12,384 nucleotides of DNA. It comes from Bacilli bacterium (GTDB lineage: Bacteria > Bacillota_I > Bacilli_A > RF39 > UBA660). The stretch is from contig JAFUFG010000224.1 in assembly GCA_017470045.1 (NCBI GenBank), forward strand, positions 1 to 12,384, in the 5' to 3' direction. The notes under the pieces are model-generated. The model was not told where the DNA came from. It saw only the letters and a program-made list of their open reading frames with translations, and ran no database searches. Of the stretch, positions 1 through 12,384 are shown one piece after another (the first letter of the stretch is position 1; each line of letters opens with the position of its first letter). The position numbers and the translations under genes were made by a program.

Positions 1-1088
1 GAACTGGAGCACATTGACACATTGGGCCAGATATAGTAGCTATTGAAGGTCTTAGGAGATTAATTGCAAAACATGGGATGAAATTTCAACCAGGAGGTTC
101 TGTGGAATATACACCTTATACACAAAAACATTTATATGCTTGGTTTAATGAACAAACAAATGATAGACAACCGATTGAAGGAAGAGGTGTAACTCTTATA
201 AAATCAAAACCGAAAGAGTATCAAAAGCAATATAATCTATCAGATCCTCCAAGAGTAGACAATGGTTTTGATAAATGGTATCAATACGTTTCTACAACAC
301 TTGGATTAGACCCGAATCCTGATGATCCTGAACATCATTATGATTATCGTGGTTATTACGACGATCTTGTAAAACAAGGCAAACAATATGAAGTAATTCC
401 AGAAGGTTTTCATTTCCCAGATACATATAAACTTCCCGGACATCCTACATTCTCTGTTGAATCTAAATATTATAAACCTGGAATGGATGCTGGACATTGA
501 GAAGGAGACAAATTTATCGGTCCAAAAACAATTGCAGATCTTGCTAAATTTACAGGAAGTTTTGAAACATTTAATCCTGAAGCATATATGTTAAATACTT
601 CTGACGGCAAACCTCAAACTCTTGCAGGATATGGAAGTGCAAATCCAGAAATAATTAAACTTGCGAAAGAAGGAAAACTTACAGAAGAAATCGCAAGAAA
701 AGAAATGCAAAGACATCTTCAACAAGAATATGATGATTGGATGAAATTAGTTCCTAACTTTAAAAATCTTTCCAGAGGTGTACAATTAGCCTTAGTTGAC
801 ACGTCCTATAATGGAAAAGGCGTCGCTAGCACAATTCAAAATAGTCCTAAATTAATGAAGATGATTAATTCTGGAATAACAGATCCAAAAGAACTCGTTA
901 AACAAATGGATCATTCAAAAACAGCTGGAGGTTGACTTGGTGTACGTTCTGCAGCAAGAAGAGCTATGGCATTAGATGAATATGATTGAGATTGGAAAAA
1001 TGTAGATCGGTTTGGAAGACAAGTTGATTATACAAAATATAGAGGGCCAGAAGATTGAAAGGCCTCACCGTATTATAATAAATATTAA
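1..1088 (+). CDS. Virion-associated protein with GH24-like lysozyme domain (5' end missing)
   Basis: Reading from base 3 with TGA = Trp gives 361 residues to the TAA at 1086-1088; the start lies outside the window. Five in-frame TGA codons (15, 498, 933, 987, 1056) would otherwise break it. From about residue 188 the protein resembles phage lysozymes of the T4 type (GH24), which cut the glycan strands of peptidoglycan. E188 and Y195 have the spacing of T4 E11/Y18. They are followed by D201, T206 and a GYG motif, the usual Glu-Asp-Thr arrangement with a short insertion. Further on come a helical RGVQLALVDTSYNGKG segment and a GGWLGVRSAARRA segment typical of the C-terminal lobe. The first visible residues, AHWHIGPD, recall the HxH end of an M23-type peptidase, a weak hint that a second lytic domain lies upstream. 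Residues 26-32 contain MKFQPGG, a motif seen elsewhere in the window. It sits 2 bp before the fibre gene, suggesting a virion-borne lysin used at entry rather than a free endolysin. Confidence 0.75.
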
Positions 1089-1090
1089 AT

Positions 1091-4000
1091 ATGATTGAAG
1101 AAGTAAAACGAATATTTGACGATATTAGAAATGCAATCATCGAAATGGGAGGTAATATTGATATATGTACATCTCCAGAAGATTACGATGAAGCTATAAA
1201 AACACTTGCTGGAAACAATGCTGTATTGTTTTTACCTGTATTTAAGCAATCTGACACAAAGCCTGCAAAACCAACAAAACAAATGTCATCAAATGAACCT
1301 ACAGAATTTCCTGATGGATGGGGTACTCCTGATGGACTTGAAGGTAGTATTTGAATGTCTTATACAATTGTTGGACCCAATACAACATATATCCCTTGGA
1401 CAGAACCATTACTTATTAATGGAATTGCTTCAGATGACGGTGGAGGTAGTAGTGGCGGAGAAGAAACTAAAAACTTAGAAGCCGGATCTACAAGGACATT
1501 TAATCTTTGCGCAGAATGAACAAGTAAAGAAATTATTCCAAAAACGCCTGCAAAAGATGCACTTACATGGAATGTAGTAACAAATATTTTAGAGGGTGAT
1601 TTTGATGTAATTCAAGATGACGGTTATCCGCTAACTTGATCAACAGATAATAATCATATATCTGGACTATATACATGGTTTTCTTCAGGAACCTTTTTAT
1701 TTAAAGACGGTTCTTTAATTGGTGATTGAACAGAACCAATTTGTATAAATGGCGTACGTGATGGCAAGGATGGTAAAGATGGACGCAATGGAGTTGATGG
1801 TGAAGATATAGAATTCATTTATAAACTTTGTAAAGATAAAAACGAAGCGGAGTCTTTAATTTCACTTGGTGCTCCATATTCGGATCCAAATCAAGATGAT
1901 TATCAACCTACGGGTTGAACAGACCAACCTTATCCAGGTATCGACCCTATAAATTATAGGGTACAGTTAATGTGTACTAGAAAAAAGAACGTAGAAGATC
2001 CAAATACACATGAAAAAACGTGGGGTCCTTTTGTTGGACCAGTTGTTTGATCTTCTTGGGGTGAAGACGGAATGGATGGAGATGGTATTGAATATATCTT
2101 TAGAGTTGCTGCAGAAGATGAAGTAAACTATGTTGATCCAGAAAAAGGTATTTATGAATTAAAAGCAGAACTTTGACCTCCAACATGTGCTGGTACAGCA
2201 AATGATGGATGTGCAAGTGGTTATATTTCAACAATTAGAAGTAATGTTCAAACATCGTTAACAGATGACGAATTGTTTGAAATATACAATCAAGATGAAT
2301 TTATTCCAGCAACAATTCCAGGACATATACCAAATGCGTCTGCAATTGGATGGGATAGAAACTGAAGCGATGACCCTTTAGATGTTTCTTATTCAAAACC
2401 ATATGAATTTTGTTCCATAAGAAAATATGATGCAGATGCTGTAAACACCGATGGATCGTTGGGCAAATGAACTTGATTTACAAAACCAGTTTTATGGAAT
2501 AGATATTGAGGAGCACGATCTCCTGTATTTTCTTCATTTGTATTCACAAGAAGTAGATTAAAACTTGGAGGAATGACGGATGAAGGACCTGGTGGTGAAC
2601 CATATCTAAAAGGTGGTACTGTAGGACATCCATATCCAGATTCCGTAGATTATTCTAATACAGTTGACGGAAAAACTATTACAGAAAGAATTGTATGGTT
2701 TGATACTGTTCCGACAGCTCAAGACTTTGATGAACAAGGGTTAGATAAATCATTAGGTGTTTGTCCTGTTTGAATGACCACACGTTTATTCGGAAGTATT
2801 GATCCCGATGCAGAACTTCAAGATCAAGGATGGTCAAGTCCAACACTTGTAACAGACAATAAGTATTTTCAAGTAGAATATTCAGGCACAACAACAATTA
2901 ATCCAAATGATGGAAATTTTAGACTTCCTAGACTCGATGAAGAAATAGAAGATGACACTCCTTTTTTGGATCCAAATAACGAAACCGAAGGTATTGACGA
3001 AGCAAAATGAAGACAGTTTTGTGTCCAACACGGTTTGGGTGTATGAGGCGATGAAAATGATATAGAGCATCCAATATGGATGGCTACTTGTCAGTTTTTA
3101 GACGGAAAGTGGACAGAATGGAATATTGTTCAAATAAAAGGTGAGGACGGAGCTACAATCTGAAATGCATATGCTTACACAAATGCAAAAGAGGGTTATG
3201 ATTTAAGTACTTATACTGTTACTGGTGTAAGAACAATTGATTTAGACCAAGACGGAATAGGAGATACTCCAATTCCAACTACAACAACAAAACCAGCTGG
3301 CAGTACAGATCCAACTACTTATGTATGACATGATTCGTTTCCGTCCTTGTCAGATGGTGAAGTTCATTGGGAAGTTGTAGGTAAATTTGAGAAAATAGAT
3401 AATGAAATAAAATCAATTGGTGGTTGATCTAAACCAAGGTTATTAGTGGACAGGAATGATTTTGAAATAATGACTTGTCCACATAAATATGCAACTGCTG
3501 CTGAAGCTAGAGCTGCAATCCCCAGTGGCTTTTCTAAACTAGGTGTAGATATTGAACCAACCTGATTAGCTTCGGCTGAAGCAGTCGGATGATTCGACGA
3601 ACAATCTGATTATTTTAATAAAGAATATTTAGATGACCAACGCACTATACCGAATCCATATTATCATGTTGCGCCAATATATAAAGCCGAAAACCATGGT
3701 GTAAATAATGTATTTAGTGATAATTATTGGGTTGTAACCAAATGTGAAGCAGAAGATGGAAAAAATGGAGATTTTACATCTTTTGTATACACTAGTGCTG
3801 AAGACGGAATTGATTTAAGCGTATTGACTTTAACAGGAGGTACGTGTGAAAACCCGATTCCAAATAAAAGTACTTTGGATGGAACAGAATACACTTGACA
3901 AGATGCACCACCCAATACATCAAAGATAATCTGAGAAGCTCAGGCTAGATTTGTAGATGATGATGATCCGCAATGTAAGGGATGATCAAGACCTCGCAGA

Positions 4001-5836
4001 TTGAAAGACACTATTGATTTTGAAGTAATGTATAGTGCTCATGATTATGGTAATGCAACACCTGTTGTAGGAAACGGAACCTATGATATGCCACCTGGTT
4101 TCAAGAAAAAGGCTTCGAATTCAGAAGATATTGATCCAACTTGGCAATCTTTAGCTTCTACTAGAGGTTGATACGATGAAACTTCAGATCTTCCAAGTGG
4201 ACAAACAGCTAAATGAAGGGCACAAACCTGAATGCATAATGGTGTCTGACGCGATTGACAATTCGAACACATTGGTGGTGAAAAAGGGGACGATGGACGA
4301 GGCGTTGTAAGTACTACAAATTACTATATGTGATCTGCTAATGGAACCACACATCCTTCTGAGAGTTCTAGTAGTTGGAAAACAACAATTGCTACATTTG
4401 ACGAGAGTAAACCATATCTTTGGACAAAAATAATTATAACTTATACAGATAATACATCAGAAGCGTTATATTCTGTATCTAGACAAGGTAAAGATGGAGA
4501 TTTAGGACCAACTGGCGCTAAATTAAGAATGCGTAACTGAAGTACTACTTATACGAACCCAGATTCAGATGGACAAATTGGATGATTATCCGGAAGAAGA
4601 GATGATCCTGCATATGACGAAAATAATCCAGATGAGTATTATGATATTGCAATTTGACCAATAAAAAGTACAAGTATTACAATTCAGAATGCTGGTGAAA
4701 ACGCTCCAAAATTATGACTTTGTAAAAAAAGACTTACTTATACAAATGTTGCAAGTCTTGTTCAAACAGAAGGTGCCGCAAAAGTTTATCCTGGATCTAC
4801 AGCTCTTCAAGATTATTTTGTTCAAGCACAAGGTTGGGATTTTCTTGCTACAAATGTTCTGTTAGCAAATTACATTGCTGCTAATGATATTGAGGCTGGA
4901 CGAATTGATGCAAACGAATTACATACTAATGACATTGGAGAAGGACACATAGATATTGTTGGAAACGACATTACATTAACGACTAGCGACGGTGCAAAAG
5001 GTTGCACGGTGTCTGGAGATCCGATAATAGAGATTAGTGAATATTCTGGTAACAACGGATTGCAACAAACATTATGAAGGAATAACATAAACGACGGTGG
5101 TAATATTGTAGACGATTACTCTTATTCCGGTAGAGTTGCCCTCGGAAACTTTACTGTAAACTTGGCTTCTGGAGATTCACATACACTAACGTTTGAATCT
5201 GGTTTAAGACCAGGTTTTACAATAGATTTCTATGCAGATGTTAATACATATTTAGGTGAACCTGTTGAATACGAGTTTGGGTTCGAATATAAAATTTATG
5301 CGAAAAATACACAAACTGGAGAAAAAACTCCAGATCTATTGGCTAACACTCAAGAGCCAATTACAGTAGGGACGACTAGTGGTGGACCTTGTGAAGTTTG
5401 ACTTTCTAGTAACGACTTTTATTTATATGCAACTGATCCTGGAAACATTTTACGAAAGGCTCCAAATATAAGTAATGGTAATTATACATTATACTTTGAG
5501 TATTCTTTATATATACAAAGCGGAAGCCGTCCCGACATTGAACCAAAAAGAGTCTATTTGAATCAAGATGCCAGCTCTTTATTAAAATATGAAAAGACAC
5601 AAGGCTCTGGATCGACAACTGTTGGTGATTCACAATTAACAGAAATTGGATCGAATGGTTTCCAACACATCCTCGATGCAAACAATTATTTTAGAGTTAT
5701 CACACAAGTTGATTCTAATAACAATAAAACGTTGATGATGGAATTCCTTACAAATGGAACGCAAGGTATTCAAATAACAAAAGATGGAATTAAATATCGA
5801 AACGGTAGTAATTGAGAAAATTTAACAACACCGTAA
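1091..5836 (+). CDS. Giant modular tail fibre / receptor-binding protein
   Basis: This 1581-residue protein is continuous only if TGA is Trp: about 35 in-frame TGA and 19 TGG codons. The start is the ATG 2 bp after the previous stop; the stop is TAA just before a terminator. Residues 1-45 are a short helical N-terminus (MIEEVKRIFDDIRNAIIE) of a kind I recall from Bacteroidales phage fibres. Next comes a DGWGTPDGLEGSIWMSY module, then five Gly-X-Y triplets (about residues 225-239). WTDQP and WSSWGEDGMDGDG modules follow, then three diverged tandem modules of about 175-210 residues, more short Gly-rich linkers (near residues 683, 888, 1063, 1132), and a helical segment, NVLLANYIAANDIEAGRID, around residues 1256-1280. 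The C-terminus (GIQITKDGIKY...SNW) looks like a fibre tip. It probably trimerises and binds the host surface. Receptor and fold of each module cannot be told from sequence. Trp content is high, near 3.4%. Confidence 0.88.
1763..1807 (+). other. Collagen-like Gly-X-Y segment in tail fibre
   Basis: Five consecutive Gly-X-Y triplets (GKD GKD GRN GVD GED) near fibre residues 225-239. Such charged Gly-X-Y stretches are known in phage fibres as trimeric stalk elements. Shorter Gly-rich pieces of the same kind recur at roughly 2064-2085, 3139-3155, 3752-3769, 4280-4303 and 4486-4510, so they mark boundaries between globular modules. Confidence 0.8.
2537..4303 (+). repeat. Three diverged tandem protein modules in the tail fibre
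   Basis: Protein-level repeats at about 2537-3169, 3170-3781 and 3782-4303 (211, 204 and 174 residues). Each opens with a FVFT / YAYT / FVYT strand. The second and third continue with GYDLSTYTVTG versus GIDLSVLTLTG. All three share GWSSPTLVTDNKYFQVEYS, GWSKPRLLVDRNDFEIM or GWSRPRRLKDTIDFEVM. The second and third also align at DIEPTW...GWFDE and DIDPTW...GWYDE. Each ends near a Gly-rich linker. DNA identity is low, so the duplication is old or under diversifying pressure. Boundaries are approximate. Confidence 0.75.
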
Positions 5837-5841
5837 AACAA

Positions 5842-5877
5842 AAAAATCCCGAGTACAATTAAGTACCCGGGATTTTT
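5842..5877. terminator. Bidirectional hairpin terminator between convergent units
   Basis: Left arm 5842-5856 (AAAAATCCCGAGTAC) pairs with right arm 5863-5877 (GTACCCGGGATTTTT) around a 6-nt loop, with a single mismatch. A T-tract follows on the plus strand (TTTTTATTTATA) and a T-rich tract on the minus strand (TTTTTTTGTTTT). It lies 5 bp after the fibre stop and 26 bp from the stop of the leftward operon, so it can end both transcripts as an intrinsic terminator. Confidence 0.9.
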
Positions 5878-5903
5878 ATTTATACCAACATTAAGTACTA
5901 TTT

Positions 5904-6305
5904 TTATTCAGAAGTAACAGTTACTTTACAAGAAGCAGATTTTCCAGCAATAGTTGCTGTAATGTTAGCCGTGCCAGCTTTAACACCAGTAACTTTACCA
6001 GAAGAATTTACAGTTGCATTTGCAGTAGCAGAAGATTTCCAAGTAGGAGTTCCAACTGCAGACGGAGAAACAGTAGCTTTTAAAGTAACGTTTCCTCCAA
6101 CAGCAATAGATGCAGTGGTTTTATCTAGTGTAATTTTCGCGCCTTGTGTTTTTTCGTAAGTGTCGGTTACATTTTCCTCTTTCACATAAGGATCATAAGC
6201 AAATTGACCACTAAGGTCTTTGTTAGAAGAAAGTTTTGCAGGTTTTGCTTTTGCGGTTGCTGCAGCAGTTTCTTTTGTGTAAATTGTTTGTAAATCGTTA
6301 GCCAT
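5904..6305 (-). CDS. Small protein with bacterial Ig-like (BIG2) domain
   Basis: A 133-residue protein with no in-frame TGA and one TGG Trp. Residues about 55-131 form a BIG2-type Ig-like domain. It has the TLDKTTASIAVGGNVTLKA start, a TPTWKSS core strand, the VNSSGKVTGVKAGTANITA signature and the CKVTVTSE end. The first 50 residues are Ala/Lys/Thr-rich, then a DPYVKEENVTDTY stretch, with no signal peptide or membrane segment. BIG2 and related Ig-like domains are common on phage capsids and tails, where they are thought to bind carbohydrate or mucus. A virion decoration role is therefore likely but unproven. It is the last gene of the leftward operon, 4 bp after the amidase, and ends just before the shared terminator. 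Its Ala/Thr-rich, repeat-like codon use differs from its neighbours, consistent with a module that moves between phages. Confidence 0.85.
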   Translation of the reverse strand: MANDLQTIYTKETAAATAKAKPAKLSSNKDLSGQFAYDPYVKEENVTDTYEKTQGAKITLDKTTASIAVGGNVTLKATVSPSAVGTPTWKSSATANATVNSSGKVTGVKAGTANITATIAGKSASCKVTVTSE

Positions 6306-6309
6306 AATT

Positions 6310-6975
6310 TTATGAATTAATATTTAAAATCTTTTTTATTGCGTTTATATGTATTTTTGTTATAACATCTCTTCCTTGTTCAGACATTAAAAATTCGCAA
6401 TCTATCTTATTATCTTGAAATAGGTTTTCTGTTAAAATGGCAGGGCACCAACTTTTATAAAGAATTGTAAAATCAGATTCGTAATCATAATCTCCATCAG
6501 ACATATCTTTTCTTACTGACATCCCATATAAAAGAAGCAATTTCTCAGCTTCTTTATAAAAAATATCGGCATATGCATCTGATTTTGTTTTACCCTTAGT
6601 TGTTCAAACACTTCATCCTCTTGCAGGCATTCATTGCGTACCATTACCTGAAGCATTTGCATGTACTGAAATTAATAAACAATGATTCTTTCCAAATTTC
6701 TGACAATACCTATTTACTCTATTTGCTCTTGTAGATAAAGCAATATCTTGATCTACCTCTGGTGTTATTATTTTATAACCAATGTTTAGCTTTTCTAATT
6801 CTATTGAAATTCGTTTTACAATATCTCTTGCAAATTCATATTCAAAAAACTGTTTCCCATTTTCAAATACAGGGGAGCGTTTTCCAGGAGTAGATTTTGC
6901 ATGACCATTGTCTAGTAAAACTCAAAATCTATAACCTGTAACGATTGCTGGATTTAATTCATTATCATTTAACAT
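6310..6975 (-). CDS. N-acetylmuramoyl-L-alanine amidase (Amidase_3), candidate endolysin
   Basis: A 221-residue protein assembled across four in-frame TGA codons (Trp18, 115, 121, 124). It cleaves the bond between N-acetylmuramic acid and L-alanine in peptidoglycan. The zinc-dependent Amidase_3 signature is complete. DNGHAKSTPGKRSP carries the first His ligand (H25). E45 or E47 in FFEYEFAR is the Glu ligand. ISVHANASGN carries the second His (H105). LTENLFQDN carries the catalytic Glu (E183). The length fits a single catalytic domain with no cell-wall-binding extension. There is no signal peptide, so release would need a holin or other membrane disruption. The ATG at 6975 is the only start that keeps the domain whole; a TAA lies two codons upstream in frame. 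It is third in the leftward operon, 7 bp after the metallopeptidase gene. It may be the main endolysin, since the lysozyme domain upstream sits in a virion protein. Confidence 0.93.
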
Positions 6976-6982
6976 ATATTAT

Positions 6983-7474
6983 TTATTTTTCATAATATAA
7001 CTCCTTCACTTTTCTCTCAATCTTTCTCATTTCAGAATTTGCTTCGATTTCTCAAGGCCTTTGAAAATATGGTGTTTCTTTATCATAAAATACACCTTTT
7101 CATTCAGCCCCACCTTTAACAAGTTTTAGTTCTCCTTTGTCATACTGTTTTAAATGGACCATTTCATGACAAAGAATAAGTAAAAGATTTCCTGCTCCAA
7201 CTCTGCTATGGTATGTTAAACGATACTGATGTTTTTCTGGAATTGCCTGTAATATAGCCTGCATTTCTAAATCAGAAGAATCAAATTTAGAAATCATATG
7301 ATCGTTTGTTACAGCAATTAACTCTACATCTTTAACATCTAGTATTTGTGTAAGAATTAATTTACACATTGTCTCCATATCATAGTTAGCTTTGTTTTTA
7401 ACGTATCACCCAACAGTATGTTTGTCATCAAAAGTTCACTTTCTTGGCGTTTTCTTTTTAAATCAATTTATCAT
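6983..7474 (-). CDS. HExxH zinc metallopeptidase-like protein
   Basis: A 163-residue protein in which all five Trp codons are TGA (residues 4, 13, 23, 125, 141). The zinc site is HEMVH (H103, E104, H107), followed by HLKQYDKGEL. The WEIEAN motif (W141-N146) probably supplies the third ligand, E144. This pattern fits the gluzincin-type or SprT-like phage metallopeptidases, which are small and cytoplasmic in appearance, with no signal peptide or membrane segment. The substrate is unknown: it could process virion proteins or cleave peptidoglycan cross-links beside the amidase. The start at 7474 overlaps the end of the preceding gene by 7 bp (ATGATAA), implying translational coupling. Under the standard code only residues 33-124 would be seen, which would cut off both the N-terminus and the putative third zinc ligand. 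Confidence 0.8.
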
Positions 7475-7728
7475 TTTATTAGAGATTTAACAATAGGTTC
7501 ATCAATAATTCCTCCAAATTGATGTTTCTTAGACCAACGTCTTGCGTTACGTGCAAAATTTGCTCTCTTACGTGTAGTAGGGTTGGATGAATGAAGACCG
7601 CGTTGAATACAAGCTTCTGTTACCTTACCACCGCAATAATCTGTAAACTTTCCACGATTCTTTTTCTTAATATGGATTCCAGATCCATTCTTAAGTTTAA
7701 GTACTAAAAATTCTATCTTATTATTCAT
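7468..7728 (-). CDS. Small conserved phage protein with GIHIKKKNRGKFT motif
   Basis: An 86-residue basic protein, the first gene of the leftward operon. I recall its pattern from many gut phages without a known function: GSGIHIKKKNRGKFT near residues 15-29, YCGGKVTEACI after it, then RKRANFARNARRWSK and a terminal HQFGG. Arg and Lys dominate, so nucleic acid or virion packing contacts are possible. The last codon before TAA is TGA (7471-7473), so the protein ends ...LIKW in table 4 and would be one residue shorter in the standard code. The HQFGG motif matches FxxGG-type motifs in the large virion proteins of this window, hinting that it too goes into the particle. A Bacteroidota-type promoter lies 26 bp upstream. 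Confidence 0.8.
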
Positions 7729-7753
7729 AATTCTTTTTATTTTATATTTTGGT

Positions 7754-7785
7754 GCAAATATAAGAATTTTCTTTTAAAATTCCAA
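7754..7785 (-). promoter_or_regulatory. Leftward Bacteroidota-type promoter
   Basis: On the minus strand, TATATTTGC (7762-7754) matches the Bacteroidota -7 consensus TAnnTTTG. A TTG upstream box (7785-7783) lies 20 bp before it. It drives the four-gene leftward operon whose first start codon is at 7728. Confidence 0.8.
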
Positions 7786-7800
7786 GTTTAAAATTTGGAA
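7780..7800. promoter_or_regulatory. 21-bp near-palindrome, candidate operator
   Basis: The arms TTCCAAGTTT (7780-7789) and AAATTTGGAA (7791-7800) are reverse complements at 9 of 10 positions around a central A. The element contains the upstream promoter box of both divergent promoters (7783-7785 and 7794-7797). A dimeric regulator bound here would control both transcripts together. No regulator gene is in the window. Confidence 0.6.
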
Positions 7801-7826
7801 ATGTCAAAATAATTTGTTATATTTGC
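7794..7826 (+). promoter_or_regulatory. Rightward Bacteroidota-type promoter
   Basis: TTTG at 7794-7797, a 20-bp spacer, then TATATTTGC at 7818-7826, the same -7 box as the leftward promoter. The start of transcription would fall near 7832, leaving a leader of about 55 nt before the ATG at 7887. No Shine-Dalgarno sequence precedes that ATG; the stretch is A/T-rich, as usual in Bacteroidota. Confidence 0.8.
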
Positions 7827-7847
7827 CCGAAAAATAATAGGCAAATA
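7820..7847. repeat. Inverted repeat over the rightward -7 box and leader
   Basis: TATTTGCC (7820-7827) and GGCAAATA (7840-7847) are perfect 8-bp inverted arms separated by 12 nt. The left arm lies within the -7 box, so protein binding could block the promoter. As RNA only the right part would be transcribed, so a hairpin in the leader is unlikely. Confidence 0.45.
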
Positions 7848-7886
7848 AGAACGTGAATTGTAAATTATTAAAACTTTAAATATAAA

Positions 7887-8279
7887 ATGGATTGAGTATC
7901 AATTATAATTGCTATAATCGGAGCCTTAACTGGAAGCGGATTAATTAGTTTGTTTACCGTTAGAGAACAAAAGAAAAGTATGAAAATCGATAATGCTGAA
8001 AAAGAAGATGGTAGATGATCTAAATTAGTAAACGAACTTCAAGATCAAATAGAAAAACTTAACGAACGAGCTGAGAGAAAAGATGCAAGAATTACGGAGC
8101 TTGAAGATACAAATGCTGTATTAAGACAAAAGCTTGATGAAACTAATACTGCTTTAGCTAAGGCTACATTAATGCGTTGTTCTAAACTTGGCTGTAAAAC
8201 AAGAATTCCTCCGTTTGGTTATTCAGAACTTACCCCAGAGGAGCTAATGCTTGAAAAGAATGTAGAACAAAGTGAATAA
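7887..8279 (+). CDS. Membrane-anchored coiled-coil protein (possible holin or spanin)
   Basis: A 130-residue protein with both Trp codons TGA (residues 3 and 44). Residues 4-24 (VSIIIAIIGALTGSGLISLFT) form one membrane helix, followed by a charged REQKKSMK stop-transfer segment. Residues about 47-95 are a heptad-rich coiled coil (LVNELQDQIEKLNERAER, then ITELEDTNAVLRQKLDE). The C-terminus has RCSKLGCKTRIPPFG (C98, C103) and a SELTPEEL helix. The topology suggests a short N-terminal anchor with the coiled coil on one side of the inner membrane. It is the first gene of the rightward unit and lies across the divergent promoter from the amidase operon, so a holin or inner-membrane spanin role is plausible. 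I recall similar proteins annotated only as hypothetical in Bacteroides phages. Confidence is in the gene and topology, not in the function. Confidence 0.8.
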
Positions 8280-8322
8280 ATTAAAATGAAGATGTTTATG
8301 AATTATGTAAAATGAGTTAAAA

Positions 8323-9063
8323 ATGCCTAAGAAAGAAAAAGTATATTATATTTATAAAATACATTTTTTATGCGGTTTTCCTACAGGTAGATATTATTTA
8401 GGAAAACATCACGGATATGTAGACGATGCATATGCTGGATCTGGAGAATTCGGAAGAAGATATTATAAAAAATACTGTAAGGTAAAAGGAATTACGTACA
8501 TAAAGGAAATTCTTGAAATTAATCCAGATGTAGAAATAAACAGAATTAGGGAAATAGAAATAATTGGAGATCTTTGGAAAACAGATCCACTTTGTATGAA
8601 TTTAAAACCTGGCGGTGACGGTAATGACACTTTATCAAAAGAAAATAAAGAAGCTTTGTCTAATGCAAAGAAAAAACCAGTCATACAGTATACACTAAAC
8701 GGTGAATTTTTAAACGAATTTGATTCTGTAAAAACAGCATCTGCATTAACTAATACATGCAGTGCAAAAATAAGTTCTTGTTGTACAAAATCTAGACTTA
8801 CTGCTGGAGGTTTCATATGAAGGTATGTTGGTGATTCCATTTCTAAAGACGAATTGGATTTCATAAAAAGTAATACTAAACAAAAAGGAGCTGCAAAACG
8901 TAAAGTTTGTAGAATATACATTAATACTGGAGAACGAATATATTATGAATCAGTACGAGAAGCAGCTAGACAAATTGGAGGACACAACTCATCTATAAAT
9001 GCTGTGTGTCATGGAAAAAGAAAGACTGCCGAAGGATATAAATGAGAATTTGTGGAGGATTAA
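8323..9063 (+). CDS. GIY-YIG endonuclease with two IENR1/NUMOD-like DNA-binding modules
   Basis: A 246-residue protein with two in-frame TGA (8818, 9043). Residues 8-90 are a GIY-YIG nuclease domain of the phage type: YIY (9-11) and YLG (25-27) stand for the two name motifs. AYAGSGEFGRRYYKK follows with the catalytic Arg region, and then REIEIIG with the catalytic Glu. Two repeated modules follow. The first is about residues 125-172 (KPVIQYTLNGEFLNEFDSV ... GGFIWRYVGD). The second is about 188-245 (KVCRIYINTGERIYYESV ... EGYKWEFVED). These match IENR1/NUMOD1 helix-turn-helix modules of homing endonucleases. The Trp closing each module is encoded by TGA. No HNH domain is present. It sits between the coiled-coil gene and the nuclease gene as a likely free-standing homing endonuclease, 43 bp after one and 2 bp before the other. 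Confidence 0.88.
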
Positions 9064-9065
9064 TT

Positions 9066-10013
9066 ATGCCAGCAGCTAAAAATATAGAAGAAAAATACAT
9101 TCAAGGTATAAAAGTAGATAAAGAAAACGATTTTGTATTCTTTAATGATTCTACACACACCTATTATGACAAAGAAACTCTTCAGAAATATATTTCGGTT
9201 ACACAACTTGTAAACGCATATTCTCAGGAGTTTGATGAAGAATTTTGGTCGGCATATAAAGCTTTAGAACAGTTAATGGATGGCGATAAATGGTCTATTT
9301 TAAAACCAATCTTATTAAACACCAAAAAATTCAAAATTGAACAACTTTCTAAATGTGGAGTAGATAAAGAAACATTTTTAAATCTTCAATCTGAAATCAA
9401 AGCTGAATATAAAAGAAAACGAGATGAATCTTGTGCTAGAGGAACTGCAATTCACGAACAATTTGAGTTAGGTTTCTATGGAAAGAAGCAATTTGATTTC
9501 TCTAAATACAATCTTCCAGCTTTGTGTGGTAATTTTGATTGCAAACAGAATTATTACAAATTAGATTTACAACGAGGTGTTTATCCAGAGTTATTACTCT
9601 CTTGTAAATTTGATAATGTTCTTGTATCTGGACAAATAGATTTAGCGATCGTTGATGGAACGGATGTATATATCATTGATCATAAAACAAATGCAGAAAT
9701 AAAGATGCATTCGTACTTTGATACAAAGAGAAAGACAAGAGTGATGATGAAAGCACCTTTAAATGATGTTGAAGATTGTTCTTGAGGGCATTATTGTTTA
9801 CAGCTTTCTTTATACGCTTATATGATCGAAACACTTTATCCGAATTTAACAATAAAAGCTTTAAAAATCAATCATATAGATCACAACGATAAAGTTACTA
9901 TTTTAGATGTACCTTATTTAAAGGAAGCGGTAAAAAGAATGCTTAAAGATTATTCTCGCAAATTAAGGATTAAGGAACAATTAGATAGAATTGAACCATA
10001 TAAAATAGGATAA
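9066..10013 (+). CDS. PD-(D/E)XK nuclease (RecB/Cas4-like exonuclease fold)
   Basis: A 315-residue protein joined across one TGA (9783-9785). Motifs of the RecB-type nuclease superfamily appear in order: SVTQLV near residues 40-45, GTAIHE with H130, YPE with E175, GQID with D192, IIDHKT with D205 and K207, and QLSLYA with Q246 and Y250. The His-Glu-Asp-(D)xK-Q-Y series is the usual metal-binding and catalytic set for DNA exonucleases such as Cas4 and lambda-type nucleases. There is no C-terminal Cys cluster, so no Cas4-type iron-sulphur site. The start at 9066 follows TAATT and keeps the gene 2 bp after the previous stop. An in-frame ATG at 9042 would overlap the endonuclease gene by 22 bp and add eight residues. 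Likely roles are phage DNA recombination, end processing or host DNA degradation. Confidence 0.85.
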
Positions 10014-10014
10014 T

Positions 10015-10230
10015 ATGACAAGTGAAGAGAGATTAAAAATATGTGAAAAGTGTCCATTAGTGAAAAACGATCCTGTTTATGGACTTACATGTGATAGTTC
10101 AAAATATATGAATTTAAAAACCGGAGAAATTTCAAGAATTCCTAAATCAGGATGAATTAAGGGTTGTGGATGTCATCTTAAATGAAAATCTAGAGACCCA
10201 CATGCTAAATGTGTTGCTAGAAAATGATAG
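10015..10230 (+). CDS. Small cysteine-rich protein, putative zinc binder
   Basis: A 71-residue protein with all three Trp encoded by TGA (47, 57, 71). The cysteines are C10-x2-C13-P, C26, C51-G-C53 and C66, forming the pattern CEKCP, GLTC, GWIKGCGC and AKC...KW. Six Cys in such spacing suggest one or two zinc sites or a rubredoxin-like knuckle. I recall similar hypothetical proteins in Bacteroidales phages but no function. The final codons are TGA TAG, so the last Trp exists only in table 4. It starts 1 bp after the nuclease stop and ends 1 bp before the next gene, in the same reading unit as a second Cys-rich protein. It is one of two genes here stopping with TAG. Confidence 0.75.
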
Positions 10231-10231
10231 T

Positions 10232-10444
10232 ATGATAAAATGAATTAAAATGGTACTACAAGGTTGATACAGAAGAATTTTTAATATTAGATCAGAAGAA
10301 TCAAAAAGAAGATTAGCTATCTGTATGGCCTGTGAAGATAAAGTCAAACTAACAAAGAGAGAATATATCTGCGGGCATTGTGGATGTCCAATTAAATCTG
10401 CAGTACTTGCTGATGAGAAACATTGTTCAATAAATAAATGGTAA
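10232..10444 (+). CDS. Second small cysteine-rich protein, DUF6171-like zinc ribbon
   Basis: A 70-residue protein with two TGA (4, 12) and one TGG (70). The C-terminal half has C31-x2-C34, then C47-x2-C50-G-C52 and C65, ending NKW. This resembles the DUF6171-type zinc ribbon (CxxC ... CxxCGCxxxxK ... C...KW), whose role is unknown. The N-terminus is basic and aromatic (GWYRRIFNIRSEE). An alternative start at 10250 would remove six residues; the earlier ATG is chosen because it lies 1 bp after the preceding stop, like its neighbours. With the previous gene it forms a pair of small putative metal-binding proteins with the same final KW. Confidence 0.72.
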
Positions 10445-10445
10445 T

Positions 10446-10859
10446 ATGGATTATTTAGATAAGTTAATGTCTGATACAATTATAGAAAAACAATTGGATG
10501 GAATCAAAGAAGGTGATTTTGAAATAATTCCTTGTAATGTTGGAGTTGTTGTAAAGCCTTATGATGAAAATCCGTATCGTAGAATTGAAAAAACTGAATC
10601 CGGCCTTATTATAGGTGTTCAAAGTTCTCAGAAATATAAATCAGATGATTCTGGAGAAATTGAAGAGAATGATGAATATGTCACTTGTGCAAAAGTCATT
10701 GCGGTTGGACCATTTTGCAGAAATGTAAAAGTTGGAGAAGATGTTTTTCTTATTAAACATATTCTTAAACCAATTCCTTTTAGAAAGCAAGGCTTATATG
10801 AGGTGGATGAACAAAATATATTATGTCGAATTGTTCCGAAAGGAACCCAAAATGAGTAA
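10446..10859 (+). CDS. GroES-like (Cpn10) co-chaperonin
   Basis: A 137-residue protein with no Trp and so no TGA. From about residue 30 it follows the GroES barrel. GVVVKPYDENP opens the barrel. A TESGLII strand is followed by a long acidic loop, YKSDDSGEIEENDEY. CAKVIAVGP comes next, then VKVGEDVFL, and finally YEVDEQNILCRIV at the end. Bacterial GroES is about 95 residues. The extra length here is an N-terminal helix of about 25 residues and a longer central loop in place of a canonical mobile loop. Phage versions such as T4 gp31 replace host GroES on GroEL to fold the major capsid protein, so a virion assembly role is likely. It starts 1 bp after the previous stop and precedes the DUF2158-like gene by 3 bp. 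Confidence 0.8.
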   Translation: MDYLDKLMSDTIIEKQLDGIKEGDFEIIPCNVGVVVKPYDENPYRRIEKTESGLIIGVQSSQKYKSDDSGEIEENDEYVTCAKVIAVGPFCRNVKVGEDVFLIKHILKPIPFRKQGLYEVDEQNILCRIVPKGTQNE

Positions 10860-10862
10860 AAT

Positions 10863-11105
10863 ATGATTTATAATGATTATGATGAAAACAAAGTGTTTTA
10901 TAATCCCGGAGATATTGTAACAATAAAGCACGATATTCCTAATAAACCTATTATGTGGGTCGTTGAAAAAAGTACACGTTCTCTGATTAATAAAGACACT
11001 CAAGAGATGGAAAATGTATTCTTGGGTATTAAATGCAGATGATTTGATAATAATCAGGTGATGCATGAAGAATTATTTTCTACCAAAGATCTTTCAAAGC
11101 TATAG
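10863..11105 (+). CDS. Small DUF2158 (YodC)-like protein
   Basis: An 80-residue protein with one TGA and one TGG Trp, stopping with TAG. It has the outline of DUF2158: YNPGDIVTIKH, then KPIMWVVEKS, then LGIKCRWFD, ending LFSTKDLSKL. The family pattern is GDvVxLKSGGPxMTV ... vxCxWF ... Fxxxxl. The Trp in CRWF, a family hallmark, is encoded by TGA at 11040-11042. The family is thought to be a small beta-barrel with no settled biochemical role. It lies between the co-chaperonin gene and the next large gene with gaps of 3 and 2 bp, so it is part of the rightward unit. Confidence 0.72.
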
Positions 11106-11107
11106 AA

Positions 11108-12384
11108 ATGAATTACTTACAAATATTTGCCAAGGGTGGTAAAATTGATACGAAAGCAATAAAATCAGAAATTGCTAGAATCTTTATGTTAGAAGATTCT
11201 CCCGAAAAAGTAGAGCAACTTTGGCAAGATGCTGTAAATACATACGGTTCTGAGGAAGGAGTACTTAGTGAAATATTTAAACAGGTCGGAGAGAATCCTT
11301 CAGATGAATCTGTACAAAAGGCAATGATGAACGTATTAAATTATACACCTATGGAAGAATCACAAATGTTTAAATGTGGTGGTAAACTACAACAATTAAC
11401 TGCAAAATTTGCTAAAGGTGGATCTGTTGATTGTGGATGTAACGGAATTAAATTGGACAATGGAGGACGACCTATTCCAGAAGGTGCTTCTAGAACAATT
11501 ACACAAAGAGATACTACTGATTGGTATCCTTTTAGAGGTGGAATGATTGAATCAGTTCATCCTACTAATGGAGATGCACCAACTTACAAAGTGTTTGATG
11601 GAGTAACCCCTGCATATAAATATTCTGTTGCTCCTAAACTAGAGAACGAAATTGGAATATTTGCACGTCCACTTCAAGCTATAGGCATTGCAGCTAAACG
11701 AATTACTCCAGAAGTAGCGGCAGAATATGAAACCGCTAGACAAAGAACTTTTGGAGTTCCTTGTAAACAACCTGGCGGTGCAATAAAAGAATTGGACTTT
11801 GACAATCTTACTAATAGACAGGCACGCCAGGCATCTGCAGAAACAATGGGATTTAATGCGGAACAATATGACCGTGCATATCAAAACGCATTAAATGCGC
11901 TAAGAAGAAACCGACCAGAAGGACTTAGAGGTAGAGCTCTTCGTAATGAAGCGAGAAAAATGGTTATTGGTTTAAATACAGGATTAGATGACAATCCTTA
12001 TTCTAATGTTCCTTCTACTTCAATACAAGACGCAAAAGCTGCAATGTTGTCAAGTTTACCTACAACTGTTGACTATTCTAAGTATAATGAAGTTGTTCCA
12101 GAAGAGCATTTTGAAGAAGTTATTCCAACAAAGCCTGTTGTTTCAAGAACTTTAAATAATAAGTATCAACAAGAAGCAAGAATTCGTTCGGCACAAGCTG
12201 CTAAAGAAACAATAGCTGCTGCAGAACAGAAAAAACAAGAACGTTCGGCTTTTCCGGGTGTAACGCTTGAAGATGGATCAATAAGAAGATATCAATATGG
12301 TGATACATATGATATCTCAGGAGAACCTAGTATGGTAGCACCACTGTCTAAATCTGTACCAGCTGAAGAATGGGCAAAAACTGC
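11108..12384 (+). CDS. Large putative virion protein with FxxGG motifs (3' end missing)
   Basis: At least 425 residues, running off the window with no stop. It has three TGG and no TGA Trp codons, so it reads in either code. The N-terminus, MNYLQIFAKGG, is followed by a helical segment of about 75 residues. Then come MFKCGGK, AKFAKGGSVDCGCNGIKLDNGG and, further on, CKQPGG. I recall such KGG/CGC patterns at the front of large structural proteins of Bacteroidales and crAss-like phages, with no assigned function. Residues about 205-300 are rich in Arg and Ala (TNRQARQASAETMGF, LRRNRPEGLRGRALRNEARK) and probably helical. The visible end is Gln/Lys-rich, then YGDTYD and SGEPSM segments. It starts 2 bp after the previous stop. 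It may be an ejected or head-associated protein processed at the GG motifs, which is inference. Confidence 0.75.
   Translation, partial: MNYLQIFAKGGKIDTKAIKSEIARIFMLEDSPEKVEQLWQDAVNTYGSEEGVLSEIFKQVGENPSDESVQKAMMNVLNYTPMEESQMFKCGGKLQQLTAKFAKGGSVDCGCNGIKLDNGGRPIPEGASRTITQRDTTDWYPFRGGMIESVHPTNGDAPTYKVFDGVTPAYKYSVAPKLENEIGIFARPLQAIGIAAKRITPEVAAEYETARQRTFGVPCKQPGGAIKELDFDNLTNRQARQASAETMGFNAEQYDRAYQNALNALRRNRPEGLRGRALRNEARKMVIGLNTGLDDNPYSNVPSTSIQDAKAAMLSSLPTTVDYSKYNEVVPEEHFEEVIPTKPVVSRTLNNKYQQEARIRSAQAAKETIAAAEQKKQERSAFPGVTLEDGSIRRYQYGDTYDISGEPSMVAPLSKSVPAEEWAKT

Follow-up and report, generated by a model that had tools for sequence, protein, structure and literature searches.

Phage tRNAs with two anticodon arms and a putative identity function, traced from a phage contig with well-supported reading of UGA as tryptophan

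The 12,384-nucleotide contig JAFUFG010000224.1 (assembly GCA_017470045.1), referred to over its whole length as the window, is phage DNA in which the reading of UGA as tryptophan is well supported. One of its relatives, a phage record of 167 kb (G005), carries at 59870-59962 (L049:19870-19962) a gene that ARAGORN labels tRNA-SeC; it is a 93-nt tRNA-Trp(UCA) whose variable region holds an extra hairpin with the CCA loop of tRNA-Trp. Such two-arm tRNAs recur among phages, not only for the UCA anticodon but also, less regularly, for CUA, and for the UAU anticodon of isoleucine. We suggest, with moderate confidence, a putative split of codon reading from synthetase recognition: the first arm would read UGA, UAG or AUA, and the arm in the variable region would present CCA, CUG/UUG or GAU to the host synthetase that charges the tRNA.

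Fourteen frames translated with table 4 tile the window; 13 of them are closed, and none is ended by TGA. An earlier note on this DNA had counted about 61 in-frame TGA codons spread over 11 of its 14 genes, none of them ending in TGA, and a recount agrees: 61 TGA in 11 of the 14 frames against 34 TGG, with TAA (11) and TAG (2) as stops and one frame open at the window end. Two of these TGA codons are weak evidence, as they stand directly before TAA or TAG (codon 86 of 87 in the gene at 7468-7728, and codon 71 of 72 in the gene at 10015-10230), and 59 remain. These two sites (positions 7468-7474 and 10225-10230) are possibly former stops made harmless by a back-up stop. The comparison of coding density that the same note had proposed, when run on the window, yields a greedy open reading frame cover of 85% with table 4 and 31% with table 11; the corresponding cover rises from 52% to 84% in a 176-kb relative (G004) and from 57% to 82% in G005. 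With TAG as sense codon, the cover of the window is only 43%, which rules out this alternative, and the TGA counts, the coding cover and the codon swaps described below rule out a standard code combined with pseudogenes or sequencing errors. The tryptophan motifs named from the letters alone hold as well, namely codons 166 (GGFIWRY) and 241 (GYKWEFV) of the IENR protein, codon 60 (CRWF) of the DUF2158-like protein, codons 276 (GWTD) and 320 of the fibre (the first W of WSSWGE, the second being TGG), and codon 121 (RGW) of the amidase.

The amino acid inserted at UGA was assessed gene by gene against relatives' records from IMG/VR, with TGA masked as X, best hits used, and only columns with at least five of ten identical neighbours counted. 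Six of the seven records were compared with the window, G002 being left out, and G003 was treated as standard-coded although it is partly recoded. In the four recoded relatives (G001, G004, G005 and G006), 67 columns opposite a window TGA comprise 50 TGA, 14 TGG and 3 tyrosine codons, so that the non-TGA partner is TGG in 14 of 17 cases. Comparison of G004 TGA codons with G005 gave 144 columns (112 TGA, 26 TGG, 3 tyrosine, 3 other); conversely, window TGG codons face TGA in nine columns of G004 and TGG in seven. Tryptophan is further supported by amidase homologues from standard-code phages, i.e., endolysins of Bacteroides and Alistipes phages, in which TGA codon 121 corresponds to W in five of five and codon 115 in all four that have a letter there (one gap). 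Some columns weigh against this assignment. Amidase codon 124 corresponds to Y in all five standard-code homologues, and codon 18, upstream of the aligned domain, to K or I; hence, two of the four amidase TGA columns are tryptophan, one is tyrosine, and one lies outside the domain. In distant comparisons, window TGA codons match W in two of three columns of G007 and in none of three of G003, and at 35-37% identity to G003 the TGA codons of G004 match W in 5 of 13 (Y in 3) and those of G005 in 3 of 16 (Y in 4). At that distance TGG itself faces W in only four of six (G004) and three of seven (G005) columns. The well-supported assignment of UGA to tryptophan comes from the close relatives.

G004 carries counterparts of 12 of the 14 window genes at 162.1-171.8 kb, in the same order and reversed. 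The same 12 match G005, where the block spans both ends of the record; because it runs across these two ends, the record is probably a complete circle. The immunoglobulin (Ig)-like gene has no match in G004, and the NUMOD endonuclease gene only a weak one elsewhere in that record. No syntenic copy of the latter gene (8323-9063) was found in G004 or G005, and its exonuclease neighbour shares 88% identity with L001 against 46% with G004, which gives the region a mosaic look. In G004, the closest relative by amidase (89%), the block adjoins the genes for the terminase large subunit (TerL) and the portal protein. Its TerL matches 144 phage records; the best 30 of these 144 are mostly crAss-like ('uncultured phage cr...'), with a best identity of 46%. 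Among the relatives of TerL and the amidase are phages of Bacteroides, Flavobacterium, Alistipes and Prevotella. The synteny with two large phage records and the crAss-like TerL matches thus bear out the suggestion of a phage with Bacteroidota signals.

G004 possesses 19 tRNA genes and a phage DNA polymerase gene, and G005 has 25 tRNA genes. In the parts of PMC7886860 and PMC12386605 drawn on here, zeta crAss-like phages are described as 145-192 kb in size and tRNA-rich, with suppressor tRNAs and with UGA read as tryptophan mostly in late genes. Recoding of TGA or TAG marks the group. The opal phages of this group, such as Lera and ct1yV3 (PMC12386605) and those of Yutin et al. 2021 (PMC7886860), resemble our records in genome size, tRNA richness and late-gene use of TGA for tryptophan. 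The window phage is probably crAss-like and of the zeta group, with which the size, tRNA number, DNA polymerase and TGA recoding of G004 and G005 fit. Its recoding is one further member of a documented group in which UGA is already known to stand for tryptophan, and the earlier description of opal recoding as uncommon was too strong for this clade (PMC7886860, PMC12386605). As in G005, Lera combines UCA and CUA suppressor tRNAs in one genome without TAG recoding, and its UCA tRNA is labelled Trp or Arg (PMC12386605); neither zeta-phage paper, in the parts covered, mentions a second anticodon arm. G005 has its CUA tRNA at 41.4 kb (L049:1394-1466), although TAG shows no sign of recoding in this genome.

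The window holds no tRNA gene, as the earlier note had stated, and the means of reading UGA can be filled in only from relatives. The search for a tRNA(UCA), a release factor and a synthetase, proposed in that note and run on the relatives, recovered the first of these: UCA tRNA genes lie at 41581-41657 in G004 and at the position given above in G005. No match to the RF-1 family or to the tRNA-synt_1b (Trp/Tyr synthetase) family was found in any of the seven relatives' records, and charging and termination would therefore rest on host enzymes. TGA is unevenly distributed in both genomes. The TGA:TGG ratio is 26:138 in the 1-40 kb portion of G004 versus 376:265 elsewhere (Fisher p 7e-24), and 10:108 at 30-60 kb of G005 versus 375:232 elsewhere (Fisher p 6e-29). 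TGA is thus rare in the tRNA-rich blocks and common outside them, in agreement with the late-gene pattern in the sections consulted of PMC7886860 and PMC12386605. Genuine TGA stops in the tRNA-rich block are possible: among 35 ortholog pairs whose ends align, four have TGA on at least one side, all of them ambiguous.

On these data, the window is best explained as part of a crAss-like phage that reads UGA as tryptophan while UAA and UAG remain stops, namely as a block of late and lysis genes close to its terminase genes. A phage-encoded tRNA with UCA anticodon most likely decodes UGA; the host tryptophanyl-tRNA synthetase (TrpRS) would charge it, and it would compete with host release factor 2. 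The tRNA-rich block is probably expressed early; with UGA concentrated outside it, translation of structural and lysis genes rich in UGA would depend on prior synthesis of the tRNA. We regard this explanation as a whole as highly probable. Against it stand the UCA tRNA of G004, which has C1-G72 and A73, unlike bacterial tRNA-Trp, and thus no tryptophan marks, and the window itself, which carries no tRNA. From the relatives, the window's own genome may carry a UCA tRNA, in either arm form. In the G004 stretch at 40.7-41.7 kb (L040:700-1657), an HNH endonuclease gene with five TGA and no TGG lies 17 bases upstream of the UCA tRNA with C1-G72 and A73, and two more TGA-rich HNH genes (L038:9774-10790 and L039:6553-7263) lie in the otherwise TGA-poor block. 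ARAGORN misses a 115-nt tRNA-like gene at L038:16255-16385 of G004, whose D and T arms are separated by a long insert.

The two-arm form of tRNA-Trp(UCA) was recovered by several patterns. A pattern for a UCA loop followed by a CCA loop found 28 viral loci, 15 of which are tRNA genes of two-arm shape; when UCA or CCA was allowed in either arm, each of the 21 viral loci in which the acceptor, the T arm and the two anticodon arms were paired had UCA first and CCA second. A scan with no requirement for a second arm (a D-arm string, a UCA loop with its stem and, 5 to 35 bases further on, a T arm) yielded 24 phage tRNA-Trp(UCA) loci, 22 of them two-arm (L225 via a covariance model) and two single-arm. 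The same pattern with CCA found at least 120 stretches, and in all 80 examined the variable region measures 4 or 5 nt and a second arm is lacking. Across 22 two-arm sequences (19 from the scan without second-arm requirement, three from the both-loop patterns), the second stem (helix 4) is paired in 90.9% of cells, and three of its five pairs change on both sides, i.e., it covaries. The loop carries TCCA in 23 of 23 UCA tRNAs with a long variable region while the stem changes with compensation; part of these 23 came from patterns asking for TCCAAAAC, and in the unbiased scan TCCA is present at 22 of 22 two-arm loci. Each arm is linked about normally, the first one base after the D stem and the second 3-5 nt from the T stem in 22 of 23, and in BLAST the part from the second arm through the 3' end aligns with 3' halves of ordinary phage tRNA-Trp. 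G73 is present in 22 of 22 two-arm tRNAs and A1-U72 in 19 of 22; these are, respectively, a major and a minor TrpRS identity element of bacterial tRNA-Trp, according to the portion of PMC12135181 used here.

The wider occurrence of long variable regions was surveyed with ARAGORN on 394 phage loci, which gave 2742 genes and 1760 distinct parsable tRNAs outside the Leu, Ser and Tyr families. A variable region of at least 17 nt is found in 88 of the 1760, and 73 of these have anticodon UCA (23 of 28), CUA (27 of 118) or the UAU of tRNA-Ile (23 of 50); the UCA set is enriched by the search patterns, the CUA loci, a lower bound in number, come mainly from a scan without second-arm requirement, and the Ile genes are by-catch. 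The remaining 15 are scattered among 1564 other tRNAs, and some are parsing slips. No long region is present in 59 tRNA-Ile(GAU) or in 112 distinct tRNA-Trp(CCA). All 23 long-region UCA genes show CCA in the best-paired register of the second arm, with U33 kept in each. Among the 23 long-region Ile-UAU genes (L263, L269, L278, L292, L326, L346, L348 and others), GAU occupies the best-paired register in 22, all of which carry A33 instead of U33. For CUA, 24 of the 27 (L308, L406, L415, L460, L472 and others) show CUG or UUG, mostly in a CTCTGAA loop, which we take to be that of tRNA-Gln, and U33 is present in 21 of 24. By comparison, only 12 of 295 Leu, Ser and Tyr arms show their own family's anticodon in the best-paired register. 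Judged by the second-arm anticodon, the CUA genes are putative glutamine acceptors and the UAU genes putative isoleucine acceptors.

Among sampled two-arm records, 13 of 17 look table-4-like in at least one piece (coding gain over 0.12), but so do 10 of 57 tRNA-Trp(CCA) control loci; a second recoding measure is equally noisy, with control values up to 0.57. Of 18 loci of at least 5 kb with a CUG/UUG long-region CUA tRNA, 14 show a gain above 0.12 for TAG as sense, compared with 16 of 59 loci with short-region CUA tRNAs (Fisher p 2e-4, although related phages are not independent). Several findings weigh against a general identity arm. Among the 24 CUA second arms, the best-paired register holds the anticodon in only 12, and loop size and spacing vary, which makes the Gln-type arms less regular; short variable regions occur in 27 of 50 Ile-UAU and 76 of 118 CUA genes. 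Little recoding is seen in the sampled pieces of the two-arm records G015, G016, G019 and G024, and no two-arm tRNA was found in G004, though it is as heavily recoded. Single-arm UCA tRNAs are also present in G003, G021, L224 and L226, and G003 and G021 are partly recoded, with long frames holding several TGA; a strict dependence of recoding on the second arm was dropped on this account. Since G004 has a single-arm tRNA and G003 and G021 are recoded, phages can evidently do without the arm, which is one solution among others, and the phage of the window may use either form. Unconstrained folding of two single sequences gave no five-arm cloverleaf. In a bacterial scan, none of the matches examined had both arms paired, and the most tRNA-like, a Skermanella gene (L111), is presumably a tRNA-Sec. 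No tRNA with two anticodon arms was reported in titles or abstracts found in the open-licence PMC literature, in which long result lists were covered partly, or in the passages covered of two tRNA reviews.

Long variable arms are normal in tRNA-Leu, tRNA-Ser and tRNA-Tyr. These class II tRNAs and tRNA-Sec resemble the two-arm tRNAs in having a long variable-region hairpin, and ARAGORN labels the UCA genes 'tRNA-SeC'. The two-arm tRNAs differ from both in combining a 7-bp acceptor and a 5-bp T stem with a mostly 7-nt second loop that bears the cognate standard anticodon. The Trp-type second arm has a 7-nt loop in 17 of 23 cases, and the Ile-type arm in 18 of 23, at 5-6 nt from the T stem in 23 of 23; among Gln-type arms the loop is 7 nt in 11 of 25, at distances of 0-7 nt. 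In contrast, Leu and Ser arms have 4-nt loops (67 of 102 and 92 of 140) and lie 1-2 nt from the T stem (93 of 102 and 128 of 140), whereas tRNA-Tyr, with 3 nt in 30 of 53, overlaps the two-arm spacing. In tRNA-Sec, acceptor and T arm together measure 12-13 bp, divided as 8/5 or 9/4. The two-arm tRNAs do not have that form: seven acceptor and five T-stem pairs are formed in 99.4% and 100% of cells, respectively, the 7 + 5 form being the only one fitted. The review 'Naturally Occurring tRNAs With Non-canonical Structures' (PMC7609411) likewise ties odd cloverleafs to stop-codon reading, e.g., the selC* tRNA-Cys with UCA anticodon, and a term search of the text accessible to it found neither 'phage' nor 'two anticodon'.

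Common to the Trp, Gln and Ile cases is a non-standard anticodon in the first arm and the standard anticodon of the same amino acid in the second. Glutaminyl-tRNA synthetase (GlnRS) recognises the anticodon loop of its tRNA. TrpRS does so too (PMC12135181), and isoleucyl-tRNA synthetase (IleRS) uses positions 34 and 37 of this loop (PMC9976931), according to the consulted parts of these studies. With all three enzymes using the anticodon loop as identity and the second arm bearing the standard anticodon, the simplest account would be an identity arm: the first arm would read the codon, UGA in the case of tryptophan, and the second may show host TrpRS its usual CCA anticodon.

The second hairpin could instead be an ordinary class II variable arm that acquired its CCA loop by chance or descent. 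Long arms are normal in three tRNA families, the Skermanella gene is one chance case, the distance to the T stem overlaps that of tRNA-Tyr, and the Gln-type arms are irregular. The constancy of TCCA despite compensated stem changes, the loop size and T-stem spacing of the Trp arms compared with Leu and Ser, the rarity of own-family anticodons in class II arms, and the recurrence of the same rule for Ile and, less regularly, Gln all make this explanation unlikely. We consider it slightly more unlikely still that the tRNA is a dual decoder whose two arms read both UGA and UGG. The CCA arm does keep U33 throughout and the normal spacing to the T arm, but 11 of 15 two-arm loci also carry an ordinary tRNA-Trp(CCA) gene on the same stretch. 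Moreover, U33 is required for decoding, and the Ile second arms with A33 should not decode.

Host defences that cut tRNAs, and phage tRNAs that counter them, are known, and the second arm might serve as a decoy or repair-proof arm against anticodon nucleases; this would leave unexplained why long regions are concentrated in tRNAs with non-standard anticodons and absent from tRNA-Trp(CCA) and tRNA-Ile(GAU), and it seems very improbable. Least probable of all, with hardly any weight left to it, is that the host itself uses table 4 and the phage merely follows. Such a host would account for recoding through most of the window. It is at odds with the UCA tRNAs that G004 and G005 encode themselves and with the avoidance of TGA in their tRNA-rich blocks, which a recoded host would not require; furthermore, the relatives of TerL and amidase include phages of Bacteroides, Flavobacterium, Alistipes and Prevotella, all of which use the standard code.

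The gene content of the window, with percentages giving identity to G004, fits a lysis and late-gene block. On the plus strand, a 5'-truncated frame (3..1088; five TGA, four TGG; residues 63-361 88% identical to G004 at 170.9-171.8 kb) is lysozyme-like or peptidoglycan-hydrolase-like by impression from its sequence, with no Pfam or PHROG match. It is followed by a tail fibre of 1581 amino acids (1091..5836; 35 TGA, 19 TGG) with matches to PHROG tail fibre families. Four genes lie on the minus strand: the Ig-like protein (5904..6305; Pfam Big_2; no TGA, one TGG), the N-acetylmuramoyl-L-alanine amidase or endolysin (6310..6975; four TGA, one TGG; Pfam Amidase_3 5e-19, PHROG endolysin), a protein with matches to PHROG unknowns (6983..7474; five TGA, no TGG; 64%), and a small protein (7468..7728; its one TGA directly before TAA, one TGG; 97%). 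The remaining genes are on the plus strand. A spanin-like coiled coil (7887..8279; two TGA; 88%) has weak matches to Rz-like spanin PHROGs, and the homing-endonuclease-like protein with NUMOD modules (8323..9063; two TGA, one TGG) matches Pfam NUMOD1 and I-HmuI_NUMOD-like. A search of solved structures with the amidase and the endonuclease gave no match. Next come a PD-(D/E)XK exonuclease (9042..10013; one TGA, two TGG; PHROG exonuclease 2e-23) and two small Cys-rich proteins, at 10015..10230 (three TGA, the last directly before TAG; 77%) and 10166..10444 (two TGA, one TGG); the GTG start of the latter is probably too early, because homology begins only at residue 23. A GroES-like co-chaperonin (10446..10859; no Trp codon; PHROG GroES 1e-6; 92%) precedes a small DUF2158-like protein (10863..11105; one TGA, one TGG; weak Pfam match below the cut-off; 83%) and a 3'-truncated protein of unknown function (11108..12384; no TGA, three TGG), whose G004 counterpart adjoins TerL. 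With a GroEL gene at 42.3-43.9 kb of G004, the GroES-like gene perhaps forms part of a phage chaperonin pair.

In our view, the two-anticodon tRNAs matter more than the recoding itself. Suppression calls for an altered anticodon in the tRNA, but TrpRS, IleRS and GlnRS recognise the anticodon loop, which poses the problem of how phage suppressors stay chargeable by the host. Two-arm tRNAs may help annotators to spot recoding, the Trp form through its ARAGORN label 'tRNA-SeC' and the Gln type through the association of its CUA loci with TAG gain. If the identity-arm proposal is true, a second arm with the old anticodon would be a general route by which suppressor tRNAs are charged by unmodified host enzymes; it may help to decide which phages can recode, and it would represent a natural design rule for suppressor tRNAs.

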